A DNA stretch of 64,000 bases. Source: Hypomesus transpacificus (lineage: Eukaryota > Chordata > Actinopteri > Osmeriformes > Osmeridae). A program made the position numbers and the translations under genes. Positions 6,201-58,400 of this stretch are shown here, in pieces. Position 1 is the stretch's first letter; each line of letters starts with the position of its first letter. The notes below the pieces were generated by a model. That model was not told where the DNA came from, did no database searches, and saw only the letters and a list, made by a program, of their open reading frames with translations. Location of the stretch: assembly GCF_021917145.1 (NCBI RefSeq), contig NC_061081.1, forward strand, positions 1,825,035 through 1,889,034, given 5' to 3'.

Positions 6201-6296
6201 CTATACACCCACGACACACTAGCGTAAAGTACCAAACAGTAGGTCAGGACAGAGACTCAGAGAAGGCAACACAGTCAGATCAGCTTTCTCTACTGT

Positions 6297-6302
6297 TTTA
6301 TT
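6297..6302 (-). promoter_or_regulatory. Poly(A) signal of ambp-1
   Basis: AATAAA on the minus strand about 105 bp after the ambp-1 stop codon. It is conserved at the same spacing in ambp-2. Confidence 0.75.
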
Positions 6303-6406
6303 AAGTTTCTGCGTATGATTGTCTGACAAAGCTATGTTTGACTGTGACAAGCTGAGTAGGTCAGCTGTATGTCTTGTATGTGTGTGGTCTATCTTTCTAG
6401 ACTCCG

Positions 6407-9400
6407 TCAGTTGGCCTGCAGGAATTCTCCTTCTCCTGCACAGTACAAACACAAATTAAACAACAATTAATCTTTCCAGTAGGAACACAGTTTCTTCCCT
6501 CTGTGTCTCTATTTGTTTGTGTGTATCTCTCTGCGTGTGTTGAGCTGTGTGTGTGTGCGACTCTCACCATCCTTCACCACCCCACAGTATTCCTCACACT
6601 CAGCCTTGCTGTAGAACTTGTTGCTGTTCCCCTGGCAGTAGCCCTGCTTGTAGGGGAGGCAGAGGCCTCTGGAAGAGTCAAAGGCCCAGACAGGGGGCTG
6701 GCCGGAGCAGGGGCTGGCAGCCATGGGAAGCCTGCAAGATGCTGGGGGAGCGATTAGACAGAATTAGAGTGAGGCATGTAGCAGATAGTCAGGTAGGCAG
6801 GCAGAATGACATACATGGAGACACAGAGACAGACAGACAGACAGACCCTCAGTGCGGCAGCTCTGCAGACATTCTCTCTCGGACAGGAAGTTGTTCTGGT
6901 TGCCAGCGCAGCCTCCATAGCCGAAGGACTGGCAGCTCATGGAGGTGGAGTTATAGAAGTAGCGCTGCAGGAGTCCAAAGCACGGCCCGCCATCCGGCTG
7001 CAGCATACACGCCTCTAAAAGGGTCAGATTCACATTGAGAGTCAGAGAGAGAGAGAGTCAGGTGGAGAGTTAGATAGAGAATCAGGGAGTGAGTCAGAGA
7101 AAGGCAGATAACTCAAAGGGAGAGCTGGAGAGAGAGTCAGAGCATGTTAGAGAGAGTCAGATGGAGATTCAGATTGAGTATAAGATGCTAGAGTGATAGA
7201 GTGCTTGTCTGGCCCCTCACCTGTGCTCCTGAAGAAGGACGTGTCATCCCCAGAGCCCTGCTCCTCGGCAGCGAGCACAGGTAAGACAACATTCCTCCTC
7301 TTCCTGCTCACTGACTCTAATGGTACAGCTGCTGGTTCTCCTGGTGTACATTCTCCTGGTTTGCGCACAGGAAAACGACACAGAATTAAAAAAGTGACTT
7401 TGACTCTTTGTCCGAGGGTGTGTGTGTGTGTGTGTGAGAGAGAGAGGAATGCACCTTTGTCCTTTTTGATGATGACCTTTGCAGTATCCAGGCCCAGGGT
7501 TCCTGTGACCCTGTGGAACTCTGCCATCCCAGTCTCATCTGCTGTCATAGTTCGGCCTACAGGGGGCAGTGTTTCACTTCAGAATAGGACATTCACAGCT
7601 CTGCGTCAATCCAGCCCTTCATACCTTCCATCTCTCCTCTGGGCTACCACTTCTGGGTGGGTGAAAACATGGGCACCTCTGCACCTCTGTCTGTACAACT
7701 GTACTGATGTCGGATCCGTGATTTCTCTTTTGTTCAAAGGATTAAGGAGACTGTGGATTGAAACTCTCCAAGTCTGTGTTGTGTCATATGGGAAATGGTT
7801 GACACCAAGAGACTCACAGTAGAGTTTTACGCTGGTGCTTCTGTTTTGGTCTGCCTTCTCCTTGGACGTGATGACGATGGCATACTGGTCATAGTCGGTG
7901 TGAAGCACGTAGGTGTCCACGTCAACCCCCCACTCTGAGGAGGGGAGGAGGGAAGGAGGGGAGGGGAGGAGGGGAAAGCCACAGAGGGAGCAAAGAGGAG
8001 TAGAGACCAACTTGTTCATTTTTGTATTTACTGTGAGAAAGAGGTGAGAGAAGAGAGATAAAGTAGAGGAAGACAAGAGGAAGGGGACTCACTGGCAATA
8101 TGGTAGTTGAATCTTCCAGGTGTGTCGCTTAGCTCATACTCCCCTGATGTCTGCTTGCATTCGTCATGTCTGAACACACGTAAACACAGGTTTCGTGAAT
8201 CCACTGTGTGTTATCAAAGCATGTGAATGTGTGCATCTTTGTCAGTGCCTAGAGAACAGCATTATGCAGATCTCTATGTGTGTTTCTATGATTGTGAATA
8301 CGTGTCTGAATTGACGTTGAGGTGCGTCTGCATGTGTGTATGTTTGCATCCCGGGAGAGTTGAAGCCACCCCGGTGTTTTCAGTAACAGAGACTTGAAAC
8401 CGTTTCCCTTGTCCCCACGCAGCTAACGACAGCTGAGACTCGTCCGCTAGTCAGCTTACCCCTCCACAAAAGCTGCTGTCTGAAGGCGTCACCTTTTGTC
8501 AAATCAAAAGCACGGCAGTGCCATCCCCTTCCTGCCTTGGAGTCTGCTGCGTTGTATTTCACAGTGCCTGTATGTGTTTGCTTGTGGGTGCGTGTGCACC
8601 AGAGCGTGTCACCTGTATGATGTCCGTGTCGTTGTGACCTTGCCCGGGGCGTCGGCCTTCTCCAGCTCCAGGCTGCCGACGGCCATCTCCCCCGTTCTAT
8701 GTTTCATCCAGGGGCAGTTGGTTGCTGTGGCAACATCATGCCACTTCCCCATGAACTACAAGGAGGGGGAAAAAAACGTGTGGTAGAGATGGGGGGTTGA
8801 TGGGGAGTGAATGGTTTGGGACCAAGCTCCCTCCCCCGACTCCTCAGCTTGAAGCAAAGGCTCAGATGGAGCTTGGTGGTATTGCATCATTTCATCATTA
8901 GTCATTTATTCTATCATCTCAAAATATCCAGAACTATGTTTCCCAACCAATTTCTGTTCTCAAACCTGGCACAAAGTAATCACTTCTTCATAGAGTAATT
9001 TTATCTGCAGACCAATTCATTTGAAATAAATCAGATATGGGGAAACTAGCGCCCCATTTGTTTGCTCCTGTCAATGATGACATCGATCAATTATTAAGCC
9101 AGGAAATCGGCAAGCCACTCTTTCTTTGCCATAGAAACGAACAGGGTGCCATCTTGAAACATCTTTAATGCTTGTTTTTTTTACTTAATCATGGGTCTAT
9201 GTGTTGGGAGAGAGGGAGGGAAAGGAGGGGAGGGGATGAAGAAAACAGGGGTGGCAAGACACAAAGAGATGTCATTAAATAAGACAGAAAGAGAAAAATA
9301 AACTGAGAAACAGCACGAGAGAGCATTCAGGCACAGATGTATAATATATTGTACAGATCCAACATAGTCCAACATTAGCTTTATGTTTCAATGTCTCTAA

Positions 9401-9715
9401 ACAACAACAACAAAGAGAATCTCGACTTGGACATCAGCTCGTTAACATACTGTTAAGAACCTGTACAAAGACAGAGGTAGGAACGGGGAAGGGAGAGTGG
9501 AAGCATGGTGGAGAGAAAGAATGAAAGAATCCAAAGGACACAGACAAATAAGGAGAAAAGGAGAATAAGGAAATGGAGAGCGAGGGGACCTCGGGGCGTA
9601 CCCTATCCAGGTCGAAGTTCTCCTGAGTGGTGTAGAGAGGATTGGAGGATAGGGGGACTCCCTGGTGGACCCCCACCAGACCCAGCAAGACCACGACCAC
9701 TGCTCCCTGATGCAT
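6407..9715 (-). CDS. ambp: Alpha-1-microglobulin/bikunin precursor, normal copy (ambp-1)
   Basis: Nine exons give 352 aa, the length of human AMBP: 9602..9715, 8613..8755, 8093..8169, 7818..7934, 7455..7556, 7221..7355, 6847..7014, 6568..6741 and 6407..6435. All junctions are GT/AG and in phase. A signal peptide (about 1-20) is followed by a lipocalin domain with GKW at 41-43, the free Cys52 equivalent to human Cys34, and the Cys90/Cys187 pair. SRKRR (201-205) is the furin site separating alpha-1-microglobulin from bikunin. Bikunin starts with EEQGSGDD, whose Ser219 matches the chondroitin sulfate attachment site. Two Kunitz domains follow (230-285 and 286-343), with an N-glycosylation motif NST in the first. 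The product is known from the family as a secreted liver precursor giving a heme-binding lipocalin and the inter-alpha-inhibitor light chain. Odd points: Cys151 where human has Gly, and P1 residues Phe and Ser in the Kunitz domains. Confidence 0.95.
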
Positions 9716-10038: not shown

Positions 10039-10162
10039 ACACACATAATAGACACACACAACAACCCCCCCCCCACACACACAGTACAGTAAAGTACTAA
10101 ACCATAAAGTTGGAACAAGGCTTCACAAACAACAACACAATCAGATCAGCTTTCTCTACTGT

Positions 10163-10168
10163 TTTATT
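10163..10168 (-). promoter_or_regulatory. Poly(A) signal of ambp-2
   Basis: AATAAA on the minus strand about 105 bp beyond the ambp-2 stop codon, in a block nearly identical to the ambp-1 3' end. Confidence 0.75.
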
Positions 10169-10272
10169 AAGTTGCAGCGCATGATTGTCTGACAAAGCTA
10201 TGTTTGACTGTGACAAGCTGAGTAGGTCAGCTGTATGTCTTGTATGTGTGTGGTCTATCTTTGTAGACTCCG

Positions 10273-13200
10273 TCAGTTGGTCCGCAGGAATTCTCCTTCT
10301 CCTGTACAGTACGAACACACAAATAACAATTAATCGTTCCAGTAGGAACACAGTTTCGTCCCTCTATGCATGCACTTGATTTTAGTTTGTTTGTGTCAGG
10401 TGTGTGTGTGTGTGTGTGACTCTCACCATCCTTCACCACCCCACAGTATTCCTCACACTCAGCCTTGCTGTAGAACTTGTTGCTGTTCCCCTGGCAGTAG
10501 CCCTGCTTGTAGGGGAGGCAGAGGCCTCTGGAAGAGTCAAAGGCCCACACAGGGGGCTGGCCGGAGCAGGGGCTGGCAGCCATGGGAAGCCTGCAAGATG
10601 CTGGGGGAGCGATTAGACAGAATTAGAGTGAGGCATGTAGCAGATAGTCAGGTAGACTGGCAGAATGACATACATGGAGACACAGAGACAGACAGACAGA
10701 CCCTCAGTGCGGCAGCTCTGCAGACATTCTCTCTCAGACAGGAAGTTGTTCTGGTTGCCAGCACAGCCTCCATAGCTGAAGGACTGGCAGCTCATGGAGG
10801 TGGAGTTATAGAAGTAGCGTTGCAGGATTCCAAAGCACGGCCCGCCATCCGGCTTCAGCATACACGCCTCTGAAAGGGTCAGATTCACATTGAGATTCAT
10901 AGAATCCTAGAGAGAGTCATAGAGTCAAATGAAGATTCAGGTGGAGAGTCAAATGATTCATATTAATTTTTAGTTAGAGAATCAGATACAGAGTGTTAGT
11001 GGGTCATTACACACATGGTATTGCATCTCACCTGTGTTCCTGAAGAAGGACTTGTCCACACAGGTAACCACAGGTATGACCATGTGTCTCCTGTTCCTCT
11101 TGCCTGGTTTCTTTGTTGCTGTCTTTTCTGGTTTATCTTCTGGTTTATGTTCTGCTGATTTATTTGGTTTATCTTTTGACGACTCTCCTGGTTTATGTTC
11201 TGCTGATTTATTTGGTTTATCTTTTGACGACTCTCCTGGTTTATGTTCTGCTGATTTAGCTGGTTTCTCTTTTGACGACTTTCCTGGTTTATGTTCTGCT
11301 GATTTATTTGGTTTCTCTTTTGACGACTTTCCTGGTTTATGTTCTGCTGATTTAGCTGGTTTCTCATTTGACGACTTTCCTGGTTTATGTTCTGCTGATT
11401 TATTTGGTTTCTCTTTTGACGACTCTCCTGGTTTATGTTCTGCTGATTTAGCTGGTTTCTCTTTTGACGACTTTCCTGGTTTATGTTCTGCTGATTTATT
11501 TGGTTTCTCTTTTGACGACTCTCCTGGTTTATGTTCTGCTGATTTAGCTGGTTTCTCTTTTGACGACTTTCCTGGTTTATGTTCTGCTGATTTATTTGGT
11601 TTCTCTTTTGACGACTCTCTTGGTTTATGTTCTGCTGATTTATTTGGTTTATCTTTTGACGACTCTCCTGGTTTATGTTCTGCTGATTTAGCTGGTTTCT
11701 CTTTTGACGACTTTCCTGGTTTATGTTCTGCTGATTTAGCTGGTTTCTCATTTGATGACTTTCCTGGTTTATGTTCTGCTGATTTATTTGGTTTCTCTTT
11801 TGACGACTCTCCTGGTTTATGTTCTGCTGATTTAGCTGGTTTCTCTTTTGACGACTTTCCTGGTTTATGTTCTGCTGATTTATTTGGTTTCTCTTTTGAC
11901 GACTTTCCTGGTTTATGTTCTGCTGATTTAGCTGGTTTCTCATTTGACGACTTTCCTGGTTTATGTTCTGCTGATTTATTTGGTTTCTCTTTTGACGACT
12001 TTCCTGGTTTATGTTCTGCTGATTTATTTGGTTTCTCTTTTGACGACTTTCCTGGTTTATGTTCTGCTGATTTATTTGGTTTCTCTTTTGACGACTTTCC
12101 TGGTTTATGTTCTGCTGATTTAGCTGGTTTCTCTTTTGACGACTTTCCTGGTTTATGTTCTGCTGATTTAGCTGGTTTCTCATTTGATGACTTTCCTGGT
12201 TTATGTTCTGCTGATTTAGCTGGTTTCTCATTTGACGACTTTCCTGGTTTATGTTCTGCTGATTTATTTGGTTTCTCTTTTGACGACTTTCCTGGTTTAT
12301 GTTCTGCTGATTTATTTGGTTTCTCTTTTGACGACTTTCCTGGTTTATGTTCTGCTGATTTATTTGGTTTCTCTTTTGACGACTTTCCTGGTTTATGTTC
12401 TCCTGATTTAGTTGGTTTCTCTTTTGACGACTTTCCTGGTTTATGTTCTGCTGATTTAGTTGGTTTCTCTTTTGACGACTCTCCTGGTTTATGTTCTCCT
12501 GATTTATTTGGTTTCTCTTTTGACGACTTTCCTGGTTTATGTTCTGCTGATTTATTTGGTTTCTCTTTTGACGACTTTCCTGGTTTATGTTCTGCTGATT
12601 TATTTGGTTTCTCTTTTGACGACTTTCCTGGTTTATGTTCTGCTGATTTATTTGGTTTCTCTTTTGACGACTTTCCTGGTTTATGTTCTGCTGATTTAGT
12701 TGGTTTCTCTTTTGACGACTTTCCTGGTTTATGTTCGGCTGATTTAGTTGGTTTCTCTTTTGACGACTTTCCTGGTTTATGTTCTGCTGATTTATTTGGT
12801 TTCTCTTTTGACGACTTTCCTGGTTTATGTTCTCCTGATTTAGTTGGTTTCTCTTTTGACGACTTTCCTGGTTTATGTTCTGCTGATTTAGTTGGTTTCT
12901 CTTTTGACGACTTTCCTGGTTTATGTTCTCCTGATTTATTTGGTTTCTCTTTTGACGACTTTCCTGGTTTATGTTCTCCTGATTTATTTGGTTTCTCTTT
13001 TGACGACTTTCCTGGTTTATGTTCTCCTGATTTATTTGGTTTCTCTTTTGACGACTTTCCTGGTTTATGTTCTCCTGATTTATTTGGTTTCTCTTTTGAC
13101 GACTTTCCTGGTTTATGTTCTGCTGATTTAGTTGGTTTCTCTTTTGACGACTTTCCTGGTTTATGTTCTCCTGATTTATTTGGTTTCTCTTTTGACGACT

Positions 13201-16200
13201 TTCCTGGTTTATGTTCTGCTGATTTATTTGGTTTCTCTTTTGACGACTTTCCTGGTTTATGTTCTGCTGATTTATTTGGTTTCTCTTTTGACGACTTTCC
13301 TGGTTTATGTTCTGCTGATTTATTTGGTTTCTCTTTTGACGACTTTCCTGGTTTATGTTCTGCTGATTTAGCTGGTTTCTCATTTGACGACTTTCCTGGT
13401 TTATGTTCTCCTGATTTATTTGGTTTCTCTTTTGATTTATTTGGTTTCTCTTTTGACGACTTTCCTGGTTTATATTCTCCTGATTTATTTGGTTTCTCTT
13501 TTGACGACTTTCCTGGTTTATGTTCTCCTGATTTATTTGGTTTCTCTTTTGATTTAGTTGGTTTCTCTTTTGACGACTTTCCTGGTTTATTTTCTCCTGA
13601 TTTATTTGGTTTCTCTTTTGACGACTTTCCTGGTTTATGTTCTCCTGATTTATTTGGTTTCTCTTTTGATTTAGTTGGTTTCTCTTTTGACGACTTTCCT
13701 GGTTTATGTTCTCCTGATTTATTTGGTTTCTCTTTTGACGGCTGTCCTGGTTGACACTGTCCTGGTTTTTAGATGGAAAAAACAACATTCAATTTGAACA
13801 TAACCCAAGACTATTCTTCGGTGGGAGTGTGTGTCTTTGTGTGTGTGAAAAGGCTGTACCTTTGTCCTTTTTGATAATGACCATTTCAGCATTCATGTGC
13901 AGCTCTCTCAGGAACCAATAAAACTCCTCAGTCAAAGTATTGGCAACCCACTTGGTTCGACCTGAGGAGGGCAGAGTTTTATTTAAGTCCAACACTTCAC
14001 AGTTGTGTATTGAAACTCTCTAAAAAGAGTTTGTGATATGCTGTTGTGTTATATGCTGTCGACATTAACAGACTCACTGTAGAGTTTCATGGTAGTGACT
14101 CTTTTGCCTGTGGCCCTCTCGGTGGATGTGTGGAGGACGATGGCATACTTGTCATAGTCGGTGTGAAGCAAGTTTACTTCCACATCAGCTCCCCACTCTG
14201 AGGAAAGGAGGGTTAGGGTAAGGAGAGGAGGATAGAGGGTCGAGGAGAAGGAGGACAGGGGAGGAGTGGATAGGTGAGTCAAACATGCCAAGATGATCTT
14301 ATTTGCCATAAGAAATCAAGAAAAGAGAAAGGAGAGAAAAGAAAAAGGGGAAAGGAGAGAGAAAGTAGAGTAGTCTACTTTATTTAAGTAAAGAAGACAA
14401 GATAAAGGGGACTCACTGGGTACATGGTAGGTGAATCTTCCAGGTGTGTTGGTCAGCTCATACTCCCCTACTGTCTGCTTGCATTTCCCTTGTCTGAAGA
14501 CACGCAAACACGCAAGTTTTATCAAAGCATTTTTCGGGGTCTGGAAAGTGTGTGTATGCGTTGGTCTGAGTATTTGGGTATTATCTTCCTGTGTTTGAAT
14601 AGCCACGTCTGTCTACCTATTTTATGTTAATTTGAGATGTGGTATCACTAGAGCACAGGTACTGGAAAGGCCTCGTCAGCACCATGGACAGCACCACAGG
14701 CATGACAGAGGTCAGGCGATCCATCGTAAATCCATAATTGGGTTCAAGACAGGATTTGGGGGTATGTACAACGCAGTGAGAGACGGACGGCAGCTAGTTC
14801 ATGTAAAACTTGTTGACCTATTTACTCTACGGGGACAACAGAGCTGAACCGAAGCACATGACAGAGGAACCCAGAGGACCCTCGACCGAGGAAGACCCTT
14901 AGTTCAAGTTTTGGAATGACCCCTGCCCAAACTGACTTGATAATGCAGAACACTGCAAATAAATGCTTACAATTAAAATTCAATTTCACTTTAAATGTCT
15001 GTGTCTTAAGCATCCATTTACCTGCAATTTTGTGCATTTATGTCTATTCTTACTGCATAAGTATATTCAGCCAACGTTTTCCACCTGTCTGCATCACCAA
15101 TCGTGTCTGGAGGAGGAGTAACCTCACTAAATTGATCCACCCAAAGTTTGTTCTATTTTCTATATTGAGTTTTCCAGGGAGTTTTTCCTTGACTTCCTCG
15201 AGGCTTTAGGATCAAGGCCAATCAATGGGCGTCTGTGAAGCCCTCGTTGACATTGCTTGTAAATAGACTTAAGACTTTAATTTGATTGGATGTGAGCATG
15301 TATGTGTCTGTGCTGGCGGGGGTGTGAGCATGTCACCTCCATATCGTCCGTTTGGTGCTGACCTGGCCGTGCCTCCTACTCCTCAGCTCCAGGATGCTTA
15401 TGGCCACATCCCCTTTCACTTGTTTAATCAAGGGGCAGTTGCTCGCTACGGCAACGTCATACCACTTTCCCATGAACTGGGGGAGGGACAGAGAGAAGGG
15501 AGGGAAGAATGGGGGAGAGAGAGCAGTAGAGGTGGAGGGGTAGGAGATTGGGGAAGGCAGGAGGGGGTAAGAAAGAGGACAGAGAAGGGCAATGAGGGGG
15601 AGGGGTGAAATAATGCAAACATGGCAATAGAAAGTGTTCACTTACATATCAATGAGATGACCAGTGGTAAAAAGAAATGTAAAATAAAAGAGAGAGACGG
15701 GAAGAGAAAACTAGACAGAGAACAAGAATGACAAAGCATTCAGGTATGAGATGTAATACAGTGTACAGATTAAAACCCAGACTACCCTTCACTTTCCAAA
15801 ACTGAACCACAACAACAGCAAAGAGTACCCAGACTTTTCCCATCATGAACACCAACTCAGTATACACACAAGATGTTAGTCTGACAGACAGGATGAAGAT
15901 AGGGGTATTAAAAATACAGGAAACAGAAAAGAAGAAACGGACAGTGGAAGCAAAGAAGAAAGAGAAATGTGAATTAAAGAGTTAGAGGAACAGAAAATGC
16001 AGAGAAAGGGTTAGGAGAATAAGGAAATAAAGAAGGGGTTAGGGTTGGGAGAATACGGAAATAAAGAATGAGGGGATCTCAGGGCATACCCTGTCCAGGT
16101 CGAAGTTCTGATTGTTGTAGAGAGGTTTGCAGAACAGGGGGACTCCCTGGAGGACCCCCACCAGACCCAGCAAGACCACGACCACTGCTCCCTGATGCAT
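10273..16200 (-). CDS. ambp: AMBP precursor with giant lysine-rich repeat linker (ambp-2)
   Basis: Nine exons predict 1,216 aa: 16090..16200, 15337..15476, 14417..14493, 14078..14197, 13860..13961, 11032..13761, 10702..10869, 10427..10600 and 10273..10301. All phases match ambp-1. The chain has a signal peptide, a lipocalin domain (GKW 40-42, Cys51, Cys88/Cys186), a repeat region (196-1056), the furin site KRNRR (1071-1075), and Kunitz domains at 1094-1149 and 1150-1207. Exon 6 is 2,730 bp against 135 bp in ambp-1. The frame is fixed three ways: the incoming phase, the conserved GQCQPG that aligns with GECTPG of ambp-1, and in-frame exit into KRNRR-HMVIPVV and the Kunitz exons. Furin cutting would leave the repeats as a tail on the lipocalin. 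The Ser-Gly chondroitin site is missing from the bikunin start, and extra cysteines occur at 24 and 1084. No stops or frameshifts were seen. The function of the tail is unknown. Confidence 0.9.
11144..13726 (-). repeat. 48-bp coding minisatellite in ambp-2 exon 6, about 54 units
   Basis: The commonest unit, read in the spliced frame, is PNKSAEHKPGKSSKEK, 16 residues with 5 Lys, 2 Glu, 2 Pro and 3 Ser. Recurrent variants are N to A or T at position 2, A to G at position 5, K to E at position 11 (GESS) and K to N at position 14. A few units have 24-bp insertions (PTKSKEK-type) that keep the frame. Every variant I inspected leaves the frame open. Units with G at position 5 dominate the N-terminal end (high coordinates) and units with A dominate the C-terminal end. 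Proline, glycine and lysine content predicts a disordered, strongly basic chain of roughly +3 per unit. Confidence 0.95.
14640..15275. mobile_element. Probable old retroelement fragment in ambp-2 intron 2
   Basis: This stretch is absent from ambp-1. It ends with sequence of the kind TTTTTCCTTGACTTCCTCGA, GGCTTTAGGATCAAGG, then GTGAAGCCCTCGTTGACATT, followed by a T/A-rich tail. It resembles the 3' tails of fish LINE-type repeats as I remember them. The family could not be confirmed and no coding domain was recognised. Confidence 0.4.
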
Positions 16201-17442: not shown

Positions 17443-19334
17443 CTAGTCCCCTGAGGGAGGGCAGTTCTCTTCTGGAAACAAAGAGACATCATGTACAACA
17501 TCAACTATGAACTATTTGAAACATGGAATCAGTTTTGTATTGTCAGACAGTTGAGTTTCAAAAAGTAAGACTGGATAGGTCTAAATGCTTCCTGATCACC
17601 TGCAGGTGGCGGCGTCAGGATGGCTTCCTGTGGAAAGCCTCGAGACAACGAAAAGTCTTTGAACTTCTGGATCACTTCAGGCTTCACCCTCTGAGAGCGA
17701 CCTGCAATATGACAACCACAAGGTTTGAACAGGGGAATTGTCTTAGCCCACTTTTTGCCATAGTCACCTGACTGTACTCTCTGGCCATCCACCCTTGCAC
17801 CAGACTCACCATAGAGGGCCACCTGAGTGTACTCGCGCTCCATCTTCTTGTGTTTCAGGACCAGGGCGTACTCTGTGTAGTTGGTGTCCACCACAGTGAT
17901 GTCCTTCACCTTGTTATGGCCTGGAGGAGAACAGGAAACCGTAATAACATTGATAAACAGATAAAGATCCCATTGAAAGATGAAGGCTCATCTCTCACCT
18001 CCATCACTCTTGTCCTGTCCCTCTGTCCCTCTCTCCCTCAATTCTATCCCTATTTCTCGGGCTGTCATCAGACTTGGGAGTACGCTTGATTCGTCTCACT
18101 GGGAGCAATGTGACATACAGATCATCACCGTTGTGCCAATGGCGAAACGTTTGACATGATGCATTTCAGCAGACTCACGTGTGCTGAAGTAGGTGAACCT
18201 GCCAGGCACGCTGCTCCTCTCATAGGTGTACAGCATGCTGCGACACCCTGCAGGACTACACCCAAACCACATAGATTCACATGAAAACATCACACAAGTC
18301 TTTTCATTCTTTTGAACCGTTGAATGTACATGCTCAAGCCAATGTACAAGCTTTTATTTTCAAAGGAGAACGTCAACATTCACGGGCCCGCCCATGATGA
18401 TGACGACCCACTGGGTCAGAAGAAACATTTCAGACGACAGAAAGGAGAGGCTCTAGAAGGAATGGAAGGACTGACTGTGTATTGAATAAAACCGCCACTT
18501 GGTTCCTTTTCACATTCTTCCACCTGATAGTCCTTCTGACCCCCTTGTCTCTACGTCCCTGTCTATCCTTTGACCCCAGGGATCCCTGCTCAAGGTATTT
18601 GCTACCTGCCACTCTCCTCTGACTCACCTCTCAGACCCACAGGGCCAGTGTGTTGACTTACGTGACTTCCCACATGGTGAGGTTGACGTTCCCATTGGCA
18701 TAGGGGGTAAGGATCCCCATTCCAACCCTCAGCTTGTCTCTGTAGGGGGCAAAGCCCTGAGAGTCATAGGCCAGACCCACACGGTACCACTTCCCTGCAA
18801 ACTGGACACACACACACACACAAACACAAACAAACACCTTCCATTGGCCAAGGGAAGTTGGCTGTGCTGTGTCCTGCCCTGTCTTGCTGCCCTATCCCTG
18901 CTGTCTTACGACCTTCGACCCCTCAGAAGTTCATCCTGTTCCAAGGCAACCCCCACACACATGTAAACAGAACACCCCCTCCACAGCAGAACACAGTGTT
19001 CCTTTACACTGAGGGGGAGGAGGCAGGGAGGCTGGCAGGCAACCAATAGGAAGGGGAGAGCAGACAAAAAACATCTGACTCCTGACTACAGAAGCCCTCA
19101 AGGAAAAGAAACAGCACCACAGATTTGAGATCAGTGTTGTCAGAGGTCAGAATGAGCTAAGTTGCCACAGACAGCTGGGGTCTGATTCTGGATCAGTACG
19201 AAAACGCTGCTGTATGATGATAATAAATGGCGTCTCACCTTCCGCAGGTCAAAATCTCTCTTAGGCTGAACGTTGGCACACACACCCACCCAGCACAGCA
19301 TCGCCGCGGCAACCGTCATCAAGGCCATTCTCAT
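17443..19334 (-). CDS. ptgdsb: Prostaglandin D synthase-like lipocalin (ptgdsb-2)
   Basis: Six exons give 184 aa: 19239..19334, 18662..18801, 18179..18255, 17810..17920, 17600..17701 and 17443..17471, all with GT/AG borders and matching phase. Residues 1-20 form a signal peptide. FAGKWYRVG (33-41) is the first lipocalin motif and TNYTEYA a later conserved strand. Cys83 and Cys179 should form the usual disulfide, and the C-terminus ends ENCPPSGD. The protein would be a secreted eight-stranded barrel that carries small hydrophobic ligands. No Cys lies between residues 38 and 82, where mammalian L-PGDS has its catalytic Cys65, so synthase activity is doubtful. It resembles the fish ptgdsb group; c8g is a more distant lipocalin and fits less well. 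It lies directly upstream of ambp-2, as part of the duplicated block. Confidence 0.9.
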
Positions 19335-25654: not shown

Positions 25655-32044
<6,390 letters not shown>

Positions 32045-40320: not shown

Positions 40321-41844
40321 AGACACCCAACAACCAAGTTGTACCGTAGTGGTCAGTAACTGTACAAGGTGGGACGGGATTTCTCGGTAAAGAATGCCGC
40401 AAGGCTTTGAGAACTGTGTGCACATTCACACACACACGCACACACACAAAAGTATGCACACACGCACCCTTTACATGCTATCACATCATGGGGGCTTCAT
40501 GTGTGTGTGTTCCTTGTGCTACTGGAGGAGTAAGAACAGGAGCAAACCTGGAGATTTCCACACCCTTTTATTAGTAACAGAGTGATCATGAGTAAACATC
40601 TGAAAGCATGACGAAAAAATTTACTTTAGAGCTGAAACCAAACCATACTGAAAGAAAGCAACAATGCAGCAAAAAACACCAATAATATTAATAATAATAA
40701 TAAAGTTTCTAATAATATCACTGGAATTATTCTCTGTGGTACTAAAGTTCCTGTGCAGCAAGAAGTCAATCACAATTAGGAAGATAAACTATGAAGGTAA
40801 ATCACGTGTGTAAGTGTCTGTATGTGTACATTTGTGTGTAAGTATGTTTGTAGGTTGCAAGAGCTAAAACCAGATAAATAATATAAGTCGCAAGAGGAGT
40901 CCTTGTTTCAACTTGGGGAGAGGAAGTGAGAGAACAAAAGAGAAAGATACTAGAAAGAAAAAGAAAGAGAGATGTGCTCAGTACCAGTGGATGGACAACA
41001 CACCGGGGAGCCTGCCAGTTTCTACCCTGCCCCCCCCCTCTCTCCAATCACCCCACTCCTCCCCTACAAGCCCTCTTACCCACCCCACCTCCCCTTTCCT
41101 CCCACACATCCCCCTCTCCTCTCCCACCTCCCCCTCTCATCTCCCATCTCCCACTCCCCTCCCCCTCAGATTAAATCTAGGTAATAAATAATCTGATTAG
41201 GAAAGTGGTCTCCCGCAGGGCATAAACACAGAGCAGCCTGCCTTTCGAACAGAGCGACCCCTAGGCCTGCTTACTGAGCCCAGAGAAATCCACCCCAGGC
41301 CGAGCAAAAGATTTCCACGCGAATCCGCCCAGTGCAGTGCGGTGAGTACACCCTAGTAAAGTCCAATCCAATCAAATGAAGATAAGTGATTCAATATAAT
41401 CAATAATGACTCATCAAGTTGGGGCAACGCAAGGAATCAAGGTGAAAACATTGTCGATATTGACACCTCAGTGTACACTAACAAACAGTGTAAAGTTACA
41501 GTGTAGACTTGGTACAAACATTCACTTCTGGGTCTTAGTTCCACACATAGTCCTGGTGTATCTGAACGATCAGCCCACACAGAACAACGCTTCACAATAC
41601 ACAGCCATGAGAGCTTGGTAGAACAACAACTTTAAAAAAGGGACAACAGTTAGTAAACCCTTCTTGTGTCTCTTTTGCCATCTTTTGAGGCCACACACTC
41701 TGCCAGGTTAGTCTCTGACATCTTTAGAAACTTAAAATGTCTTCAGAAATGATATTTTGAAAGTGTTATTGCAACCCAGTGAGACTCTGGGTAGTATGGT
41801 TGGAACACAAGCTTTAGTTGTGTGTTAAGGTCTGTGTGGGATGT

Positions 41845-41934
41845 CACCATCAACATCACAATCGTCATCATCATCATCACCACCACCATCATCATCACCA
41901 CCACCATCACCATCACCATCACCATCACCATCAC

Positions 41935-41981
<47 letters not shown>

Positions 41982-42009
41982 CCATCATCACCATCATCAC
42001 CATCATCAC

Positions 42010-42065
<56 letters not shown>

Positions 42066-42072
42066 CCATCAC

Positions 42073-42137
<65 letters not shown>

Positions 42138-42195
42138 CCATCACCATCACCATCATCATCATCATCATCATCATCACCATCACCATCATCATCTG
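41845..42195. repeat. (CAT)n/(CAC)n trinucleotide microsatellite
   Basis: About 350 bp of CAT and CAC triplets. All six frames stay open because the repeat is a trinucleotide, giving meaningless poly-His, poly-Met, poly-Ser and poly-Asp frames. Confidence 0.95.
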
Positions 42196-43041: not shown

Positions 43042-52481
<9,440 letters not shown>

Positions 52482-52581
52482 NNNNNNNNNNNNNNNNNNN
52501 NNNNNNNNNNNNNNNNNNNNNNNNNNNNNNNNNNNNNNNNNNNNNNNNNNNNNNNNNNNNNNNNNNNNNNNNNNNNNNNNN
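52482..52581. other. Assembly gap, 100 N
   Basis: Exactly 100 N, the usual placeholder for a gap of unknown length. It falls immediately downstream of the last visible sardh exon. Confidence 0.99.
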
Positions 52582-55429: not shown

Positions 55430-58400
55430 AAGGCAAACATTGCTCCAATTTCCATTCATTCGGTCATCCTTTTATTCATTAGATGGAGCCAATCGGAGTG
55501 CAAGGTTAAGGCGGACCAAAGGACACCAGGAAGTGATGGGGTTCCATTCTCTCTATGGAGATTACTCTGCTCAATCTCCATCAGTAGAATTACAGCAGCG
55601 TAACTTTCAGCAGTGTCTGTGGCCTGTCTGCTAAACATGAACCATCACTGTGTCTGTGTGTGTGTGGAAGGGTGGGGGGGGGGGAGAGAGAGAGAGACAG
55701 AGAGGAGAAAGAAAGAAAAAGAAAATGGCAAAGGCTACTTAGGATAGAGAGACAGGCAAGAGAATGGAAGCAAGAGAATGGAAACAGGACAGGCAGAAGA
55801 GGCAAAGGGGGTTGAAAGGACAAAGGACGGATGGAGAAATGAGATGAAATGTAGATAAGGGACAGATGGGGGGGGTTCAATGCCCGAATGAGAGAGCGAG
55901 GGAGGTGAAGAGGAGGGCAATGGAGCGGCAGGACAGAGAAACTGACGTGTGTGCACCAGACTGGCGTGGGAAGAGGGGGGGGAGGAAAGAGAGCGGAAAA
56001 TAAACAGGTAAAGGAGAAGAGGAGAGACAGGTAGAAGAAGAGGAGAGACAGGTAGAAGAAGAGGAGAGACAGGTAGAAGAAGAGGAGAGACAGGGAGAGG
56101 AGAAGAGGAGAGGCGGGGGGGGGGGGGGAGAGGACAGGAGGAGAGACCGGTGTGGAAGAAAAGACTGAGTCATGGAGAGGCCATGGTGACTTCATCCACA
56201 GAACAACAAAGTAGAGCCCTCGGGAGCCGTCCTGAAGGTTGAGAGCAGGCATCCGACTGTCTACACACACACACACACACACAGCCCCACCTGGTGAAAG
56301 GGGTCCGTCCTCATGTTGCGGCTAGCCAGGGGCTCGTCGAAGGGGAACACGACAGAGTAGTTCTTGGCGTATGACTCGTGACTCCTCTCTCTGATCCACT
56401 GGTTGTTCCCCGTCAGAGAGTTGTGGAACCGCCTGGACAAAGACAGAGTAAGGCTCTGTGTGAGAGCCAGGGTTCCATGTGTTTGTATGTACATTCTGAG
56501 TGTTGGTGATATGTGTGTGTACACATACAGTGCCCTCCAAAAGTATTGGAACAGTGAGGCGAATTCCTTTATTTTTGCTGTAGACTGAAAACATTTGGGC
56601 TTGACATCAAATAATGAACGTGAGACCAGAGATCAACGTTTCAGCTTTTATTTCCAGGTATTTACATCAGGATCTGATGCACAACTAAGAAAATATCACA
56701 TTTTGTTTGAATCCACCCATTTGTCATGTGAGCAAAAGTATTGGAACAGATATACTTAAAACATATTTAAGTGAATAAGACTTAATATTTAGTTGCAAAT
56801 CCTTTGCTTTCAATAACTGCAGCAAGTCTGTGACCCATTGACGTCACCAAACCTTTGCATTCTTCCTTTTTGATGCTTTCCCAGGCTTTTACTGCAGCCT
56901 CTTTCAGTTGTTGTTTGTTTTGTGGGGTTCCTCCCTTCAGTCTCCTCTTAAGCAGGTAAAATGCATGCTCTATAGGGTTTAAGTCTGGAGATTGACTTGG
57001 CCAGTCTAATACCTTCCATTTCTTGCCCCTGATGAACTCCTTTGTTGTTTTGGCAGTGTGTTTTGGGTCGTTATCTTGCTGCATGATGAAGGCTCTGCCA
57101 ATCAGTTTGGTTGCATCTTTCCTTAAATTGGCAGACAAAATGTTTCTGTAGACTTCCGAGTTCATTTTGCTGCTGCCATCATGTGTTACATCCTCAATGA
57201 AGATTAATGAGCCCGTCCTAGAAGAAGCCATGCAAGCCCAAGCCATGACATTACCTCCACCGTGTTTCACAGATGAGCTTGTGTGTTTGGGATCATGAGC
57301 AGTTCCTTTCTTTCTCCAAACTTTAGCCTTTCCATCACTTTGGTAAAAGTTAATCTTTGTCTCATCAGTCCATAAAACTTTGTCCCAGAATTTTTGAGGT
57401 TCATCTCTGTACTTTTTGGCAAATTCCAGCCTGGCCTTCCTATTCTTCTTGCTAATGAGTGGTTTGCATCTTCTGGTGTAGCCCTTGTACTTTTGTTCAT
57501 GAAGTCTTCTGCGAACAGTAGATAGTGATACCTTCACTCCTGCCATCTGGAGGTTGTTGCTGATCTCACTAACAGTTGTTTTAGGGTCTTTCTTTACAGC
57601 TCTCACAATGTTTCTGTCATCAACTGCTGATGTTTTCCTTGGTCTACCTGTTCGACGTCTGTTACTTAGTACACCAGTAGTTTTCTTCTTCTTCAGGACA
57701 TTCCAAATGGTTGTACTGGCTATGGCCAATGTTTCTGCAATGGCTCTGATTGATTTTCCATCTTCTCTAAGACTCACAATTGCTTGTTTCTCACCCAAAG
57801 ACAGCGCTCCGGTTTTCATGTTGTTTTCACCTCTGAATACAGTCTGCATAGACAAAACCTATCTTACCCAATCTGAACCTGAGTGTAGACATTCAGTGGT
57901 ATTTATTGATTGAATAATGTATGTAATAGGACACACCTGGGCAACAAAACACACCTGTCAGTCATATGTTCCAATACTTTTGCTCACGTGACAAATGGGT
58001 GGGTTCGAACAAAAAGGTGATATTTTCTAATTTGTGCATCAGATCCTGATGTAAATACCTGGAAATAAAAGCTGAAACGTTGATCTCTGGTTTCACATTC
58101 ATCGTTTGATGTCAAGCCCAAATGTTTTCAGTCTACAGCAAAAATAAAGGAATTGGCCTCACTGTTCCAATACTTTTGGAGGGCACTGTATATATATATA
58201 TATATATATGTGTGTTAGGACTTTACCTGATATCATAACCATACATGTCCTTCTCAGGTCGTCCATGGATAATCCAGTGAGCCAGCTCTCTACCACATCC
58301 TCCTCCCAGCATCATCCCTGTTCACACACACACGCACACACACACAGGAGGGGGAAGCCTTTGTGACATTGAATTGCATCATAACCCTTCCTTGTCATGT

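Follow-up and report, generated by a model that had tools for sequence, protein, structure and literature searches.

An AMBP paralog of Hypomesus transpacificus with a 53-unit repeat array between its lipocalin and Kunitz domains

Introduction

AMBP is an old fusion gene, and passages of PMC7965949 call the reason why alpha-1-microglobulin (A1M) and bikunin are made together largely unknown. A locus of the fish Hypomesus transpacificus raises this question in an unusual form: of two adjacent AMBP genes, one (ambp-1) is of ordinary length, and the other (ambp-2) carries a long tandem repeat in the exon that links the two halves of the fusion. We asked whether this array is real and read as protein, and what kind of product would result. 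The window, that is, the whole stretch of DNA analysed, comprises 64,000 nucleotides (assembly GCF_021917145.1, contig NC_061081.1, positions 1,825,035 to 1,889,034).

A search of the open full-text literature, judged by title and the start of the abstract and with most subscription journals outside its scope, returned no repeat-bearing AMBP. Among chordate lipocalins, fish AMBP appears only as a single monophyletic group, with paralog groups given for APOD, RBP4 and PTGDS, in the passages of PMC8420045 that treat them. Fish gill or plasma proteomics studies mention AMBP in passages that are silent on a repeat form (PMC5033585, PMC10668809).

Results

Two tandem AMBP genes

The minus strand between 6407 and 16200 contains two tandem AMBP genes, ambp-1 and ambp-2, for which we built models by hand from splice sites and homology. 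GT and AG are present at every intron in both models, and the ambp-2 model is intact, with matching exon phases and 1,216 codons free of stops and frameshifts. The features are as follows.

6407..9715, minus strand: ambp-1, 352 aa, 9 coding exons; ordinary-length neighbouring paralog and comparison gene
7355-7221, minus strand: ambp-1 exon 6, 135 bp
16200-10273, minus strand: ambp-2, 1,216 aa, 9 coding exons
16090..16200, minus strand: ambp-2 exon 1; start codon and signal-peptide-like stretch; 103 of 111 bases the same as in ambp-1 exon 1
15337..15476, minus strand: ambp-2 exon 2; lipocalin, GKW motif, Cys at the human C34 position
14417..14493, minus strand: ambp-2 exon 3; lipocalin, Cys at the human C72 position
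14078..14197, minus strand: ambp-2 exon 4; lipocalin
13860..13961, minus strand: ambp-2 exon 5; lipocalin
11032..13761, minus strand: ambp-2 exon 6; last lipocalin Cys (186), repeat array, furin-type site KRNRR, bikunin N-terminus without an SG site
11147..13753, minus strand: repeat units in ambp-2 exon 6; 53 in frame, consensus KPGKSSKEKPNKSAEH; ends computed from unit offsets
10702..10869, minus strand: ambp-2 exon 7; Kunitz 1, 96% identity with ambp-1
10427..10600, minus strand: ambp-2 exon 8; Kunitz 2, 99% identity with ambp-1
10273..10301, minus strand: ambp-2 exon 9; C-terminus and stop

Pfam recognises a lipocalin and a pair of Kunitz stretches in each protein. In ambp-2, the lipocalin (PF00061, 79.5 bits) covers residues 39-180, two PF00014 (Kunitz) stretches follow downstream in the common reading frame, and the top PDB match of the lipocalin part is human AMBP (4es7, 1.3e-32), which bears out the original prediction that this gene is an AMBP. 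For ambp-1, the top solved structures are human bikunin and human AMBP. A basic processing site, RNRR at 1072-1075, lies between the lipocalin and Kunitz halves of ambp-2 and is predicted to be cleaved. By eye, exon 1 of ambp-2 resembles a signal peptide, and passage of the protein through the ER and Golgi is therefore expected.

The predicted sizes of exon 6, 2,730 bp in ambp-2 against 135 bp in ambp-1, were confirmed; the gap of 2,595 bp is a multiple of three, as is every exon length difference between the two genes. Human AMBP is described, in the passages available, as having 10 exons, with bikunin on exons 7-10. The array would thus probably lie near the human A1M/bikunin exon junction, since a single exon 6 spans that junction here.

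A tblastn search with both proteins, from which matches wholly inside the array were filtered out, detected no AMBP copies within the 64-kb window besides ambp-1 and ambp-2. Directly upstream of ambp-2, a lipocalin-like fragment is found on the minus strand at 17532-17987 (PF00061, 22.9 bits at a cut-off of 23).

The repeat array of ambp-2 exon 6

Tandem Repeats Finder identified a 48-bp unit present in 52.8 copies at 11140-13669 (94% matches, score 4255). Translated in the spliced frame, the array comprises 53 units by our count; 49 are 16 aa long, three are 23 aa long, and the last merges into the non-repeat end. The 48-bp unit of the original prediction therefore stands, its sequence being a cyclic form of KPGKSSKEKPNKSAEH, and the copy number is revised from about 54 to 53. 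The consensus is also the commonest exact copy, accounting for 15 of the 49 16-mers, which fall into 13 protein types and 15 DNA types. All unit-length changes are multiples of 3, consisting of three 21-bp insertions. The placement was likewise confirmed: the array lies between Cys186, the last lipocalin Cys, and KRNRR at 1071-1075.

With up to 3 mismatches allowed, a 20-base core of the unit has 53 matches in the window, compared with a mean of 0.02 in 100 shuffles, and all 53 are within ambp-2 exon 6, one of them in the degenerate 3' end, at 11121. The first unit, QPGQPSKEKPNKSGEH, starts at the third full codon of exon 6, where ambp-1 encodes the A1M C-terminus GECTPGEPA. Because of this position, the unit was probably derived from the start of exon 6, that is, from the linker itself.

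NCBIfam gave 0 families for the initial 229 aa of the array. With the full ambp-2 protein as the query, the repeat part matched PF08017 (Fibrinogen_BP) at 62.4 bits, above the cut-off of 50; we did not accept membership in this family, judging the match to a low-complexity repeat to be compositional, because the repeat seems to have arisen within an AMBP exon.

Predicted reading of the array as protein

An open reading frame is no proof of coding here, and we rejected it as such: the array (11140-13738) is open in three of its six frames, two sense and one antisense. Because openness alone proves nothing, the coding claim rests on the splice phase and the flanking domains: exon 5 sets the phase at the start, and the furin-type site and the Kunitz domains downstream require the same frame. 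We also considered and rejected the array as an intron or inserted element. On an approximate splice-site matrix, the array has no donor-like sites, its 102 GT dinucleotides ranging from -4.5 to -9.4 and 16 native donors from -0.8 to 7.3, and none of its 335 AGs follows a pyrimidine tract (at most 0.40, compared with 0.55-1.0 at 16 native acceptors). An inserted element is further countered by the location of the first unit at the exon start, at the ambp-1 A1M C-terminus, and by the confinement of the core to the exon (53/53 window matches).

The array could nevertheless be missing from the main product, either because exon 6 is skipped or because the assembly has inflated the array. Skipping would keep the frame (2730 = 3 x 910), but would remove the last lipocalin Cys together with the furin-type site. 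The assembly does have gaps, with a single N run in the window, at 52482-52581, far from the array; however, the order of the 53 units, which are of 15 DNA types, is irregular and repeats in blocks of at most 4 units, unlike a copied assembly block. We regard either possibility as highly improbable and conclude that, as a sequence, the array encoding the giant tail is real.

Composition and modification motifs of the tail

Measured from Cys186 to the point of cleavage, the tail comprises 889 aa, about 96 kDa, with K at 29.7%, S at 18.1%, E at 13.0% and P at 12.7%, a charged-residue fraction of 0.44, and only one residue in total from among F, W, Y, I, L, V, M and C. Digested in silico with trypsin, it falls into short peptides. 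AlphaFold2, run on 8 units as a single sequence without an alignment, a setting that often gives poor models and makes the run weak evidence for disorder, assigned no secondary structure (pLDDT 58.8, pTM 0.12); the 889-residue tail is probably disordered.

The unmodified net charge is +148, close to the roughly +150 originally predicted, and the basicity of the bare chain is thus upheld. One alternative reading is that the secreted tail would be a bare polycation, largely unmodified and binding heparin, chondroitin sulfate, hyaluronan, nucleic acids or bacteria. Its charge, its lysine content and its charged-residue fraction fit such a role, as does the classification of FAM20C as an acidophilic kinase in the accessible part of PMC12650399, given the Lys-rich setting, which may lower the use of tail S-x-E sites by this kinase. 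Against this stand the 106 S-x-E motifs and 35 NKS sequons of the tail, in a protein expected to travel through the ER and Golgi. FAM20C strictly requires Glu at +2 (PMC12650399, as far as its passages on specificity go). Each unit has up to two S-x-E motifs; of the 53 units, S[AG]E is present in all 53 and S[KN]E in 50, with NKS in 34 and missing from 19. Elsewhere, S-x-E has one occurrence in ambp-2 outside the tail and four in all in ambp-1, none of them in the linker. When the residues of the unit were permuted in 200,000 trials, two S-x-E motifs and a sequon co-occurred in 0.6%, two S-x-E motifs alone in 2.8% and a sequon alone in 17%, in a test framed after the motifs had been seen. In 35 motifs, the sequon Ser is also the S-x-E Ser, leaving 71 independent S-x-E motifs, and phosphorylation and N-glycosylation may compete at these 35 common serines.

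Counting two charges per phosphate and no sialic acid, the computed net charge of the tail is already cut to +95 at 25% phosphorylation, and falls to +42 at half, about 0 at approximately 70% and -64 at full phosphorylation. A plain polycation is not a safe prediction because phosphorylation of approximately 70% would bring the net charge near zero, and we consider a bare polycation unlikely. Of the strongly basic, disordered tail originally proposed, the basicity of the bare chain and the probable disorder hold, but a polycation after secretion is not secured.

The bikunin half and probable gene conversion

Human bikunin carries a single chondroitin-sulfate chain, at Ser-10 (stated in part of PMC8418075), and the heavy chains of inter-alpha-inhibitor attach to that chain (in passages of PMC7965949). 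The ambp-1 protein has a Ser-Gly glycosaminoglycan site in an acidic context before Kunitz 1, where aligned human bikunin reads EEEGSGGG, whereas the bikunin encoded by ambp-2 (bikunin-2) has none; its N-terminus, encoded in exon 6, reads HMVIPVVTCVDKSFFRNT. Because this site is lost and the heavy chains attach to that chain, bikunin-2 should lack chondroitin sulfate at the SG position, and with it the heavy chains. Thus, the predicted release of a free bikunin agrees with the furin-type site, but the released protein would not be an ordinary bikunin. The tail contains 14 SGE triplets, which are in a Lys-rich setting and would remain with the lipocalin after cleavage.

The Kunitz part is nearly identical between the paralogs (118 of 123 residues). 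At the nucleotide level, identity is 96%, 99% and 93% in exons 7, 8 and 9, 98% in intron 7, 80% in intron 8 and 97% in the 3' flank; upstream, it is 93% in exon 1, 63-83% in exons 2-5 and 46-64% in introns 1-6. The following regions are pertinent.

10180..10900, strand not assigned: probable gene-conversion tract, common to ambp-1 (about 6280-7040), from identity steps and blastn
6568-6741, 6847-7014, 10427-10600 and 10702-10869, minus strand: Kunitz exons with P1 residues, from alignment with human bikunin

In sixty-column steps from 10885 down to 10236, 11 of 12 show 0.91-1.0 identity and one, at 10409, shows 0.66; five steps upstream of the tract are at 0.53-0.76 and the next downstream step is at 0.80. 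A blastn alignment of 6214-7096 with 10079-10951 gives 89.6%. Because identity steps up near 10900, in intron 6, and holds, apart from the one step, to about 10180, these data suggest that the Kunitz end was homogenised between the paralogs, probably by gene conversion. The bikunin N-terminus, encoded in exon 6, is outside the tract.

In the alignment with human bikunin, the residues at what we take to be the P1 positions are Phe (Kunitz 1) and Ser (Kunitz 2) in both fish bikunins, and Met and Arg in the human protein. Trypsin inhibition by Kunitz 2 is doubtful for both bikunins, because P1 appears to be Ser there and is Arg in human.

The lipocalin half and selection

Both copies keep Cys at the human C34, C72 and C169 positions in the alignment (Cys 51, 88 and 186 in ambp-2). 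The functional residues of A1M given in part of PMC7965949 are Y22, K69, K92, K118, H123, K130 and Y132. Both copies retain K130 and Y132 of the human protein and have substitutions at Y22, K69, K92 and H123; at K118, ambp-1 has the human residue and ambp-2 a different one. Judging from these residues, human-type heme binding cannot be assumed for either copy. Two additional cysteines, Cys24 (16129-16131) and Cys1084 (11060-11062), are present in ambp-2 and absent from ambp-1, and Cys151 of ambp-1, at the exon 4/5 junction (7818 and 7555-7556), is absent from ambp-2.

Comparison of the lipocalin parts, including the signal exon, yielded dN 0.277, dS 0.358 and a ratio of 0.77 over 189 aligned codons; by these alignments, the lipocalin end has diverged fast between the paralogs, and the Kunitz end is nearly identical. 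This ratio raises the prospect of neutral expansion, whereby the disordered linker of a relaxed paralog tolerated in-frame slippage and the tail has no particular function. Such an origin is consistent with the loss of the SG site, the gain of Cys24 and Cys1084, and the absence of residues K92 and H123 of the human protein from both copies and of K118 from ambp-2. The units point the same way. There is no sign of purifying selection among them: 12 of the 14 distinct changes are nonsynonymous and two synonymous, compared with an expected synonymous fraction of 0.23 (P = 0.35), and the absence of stops among the 14 has a probability of 0.27 by chance. For this comparison, and for that of unit order, three units were taken without their 21-bp insert and the last unit was trimmed to 48 bases; a two-base N-to-A change was counted as two changes.

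The reading frame itself argues otherwise. All 1,216 codons of the model are free of stops and frameshifts, and every difference in exon length between the paralogs is divisible by 3. In neutral simulations (3,000 each), the 191 lipocalin codons stayed stop-free in 14.5% of runs at 0.1 substitutions per site, a frequency that leaves room for neutrality, but in only 4.4% at 0.18, an assumed value equal to half of dS, and in 0.4% at 0.36. Neutral expansion is, on balance, rather unlikely; the frame of ambp-2 has probably been maintained, under constraint that is relaxed or changed.

Other features of the window

Tandem repeats also occur outside the array: a 41-bp unit in 8 copies (31099-31427, 100% matches), outside the modelled genes, and a TCATCA unit in 58.3 copies (41844-42193, 91% matches). 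Mobile-element sequences include a Tc1/mariner-type transposase frame of 358 codons without a stop (56785-57858; PF01498, PF13358) and the one Rfam element of the window, a UnaL2 LINE 3' element (RF00436, 40134-40187, 64.9 bits); UnaL2 belongs to a LINE first described in eel. No tRNAs were found in the window. On the minus strand, 27305-27820, 29937-30458 and 43045-43596 contain fragments of an AMP-binding enzyme gene (PF00501, the first below the cut-off) and a FAM163 family gene (PF15069).

Discussion

The sequence shows ambp-2 to be an AMBP gene with predicted modification sites built into its repeat and a lost chondroitin-sulfate site, both of which go beyond the original prediction. The interpretation that we favour, with about as much doubt as confidence, is that ambp-2 is an intact tandem paralog whose product is a secreted A1M-type lipocalin with a modified, mixed-charge phosphoglycoprotein polymer as its tail. 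Under this scenario, a 16-residue unit of the linker exon would have been amplified, apparently from the exon's own first codons, to 53 in-frame copies. Secretion and cleavage at KRNRR would yield two products, a bikunin devoid of chondroitin sulfate and a lipocalin whose disordered C-terminal tail is 889 residues long. In the secretory pathway, the S-x-E motifs of the tail would be phosphorylated by FAM20C and its NKS sequons N-glycosylated, and the tail might leave the cell not as a bare polycation but as a large, hydrated phosphoglycoprotein polymer fused to the lipocalin. The likeliest effect would be a much larger hydrodynamic size, leading to longer circulation; the tail could also provide multivalent weak binding of ions or polyanionic surfaces. 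With its SG site kept, ambp-1 would go on supplying the light chain of inter-alpha-inhibitor.

A more far-reaching version, which we put forward tentatively and think doubtful, is that a plasma lipocalin has grown, de novo, a 53-unit phosphoglycopolymer tail of tunable charge, that its bikunin has been freed from the inter-alpha-inhibitor pathway, and that the duplicate has taken on a new job, for example, in ion, mineral or ice interaction, or as a large circulating radical sink.

The ambp-2 protein resembles AMBP in its signal-like exon 1, its lipocalin with the C34, C72 and C169 cysteines, its furin-type linker site and its two Kunitz domains, but differs from it in the 889-aa lipocalin tail, in the lack of the bikunin SG site and in the replacement of Y22, K69, K92, K118 and H123. 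Similarly, bikunin-2 is like the inter-alpha-inhibitor light chain, its Kunitz part being the same as that of ambp-1 at 118/123 residues, but has no SG site before Kunitz 1.

Two further likenesses are by analogy only. Osteopontin, caseins and phosvitin are secreted, disordered FAM20C phosphoproteins, and the ambp-2 tail resembles them in being long, disordered and dense in S-x-E; unlike them, it is Lys-rich, tandem-repeated, studded with NKS sequons and fused to a lipocalin. Hyosophorins and antifreeze glycoproteins are repeat glycoproteins of fish, and the ambp-2 tail is comparable in that it is predicted to be secreted, is a tandem repeat and offers a possible site of glycosylation in most of its units; the unit and the host gene differ.

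Were the tail secreted, plasma would contain a polymer of a new kind, one that arose by repeat expansion of a few codons and has glycan and phosphate sites in its units. Array length may well differ among individuals, and the effect on the size of the plasma protein is directly testable. More generally, ambp-2 keeps the fusion that defines AMBP while dropping the chondroitin-sulfate site and carrying a giant linker tail; its location beside the ordinary-length ambp-1 provides a natural experiment for asking what parts of the fusion are required.
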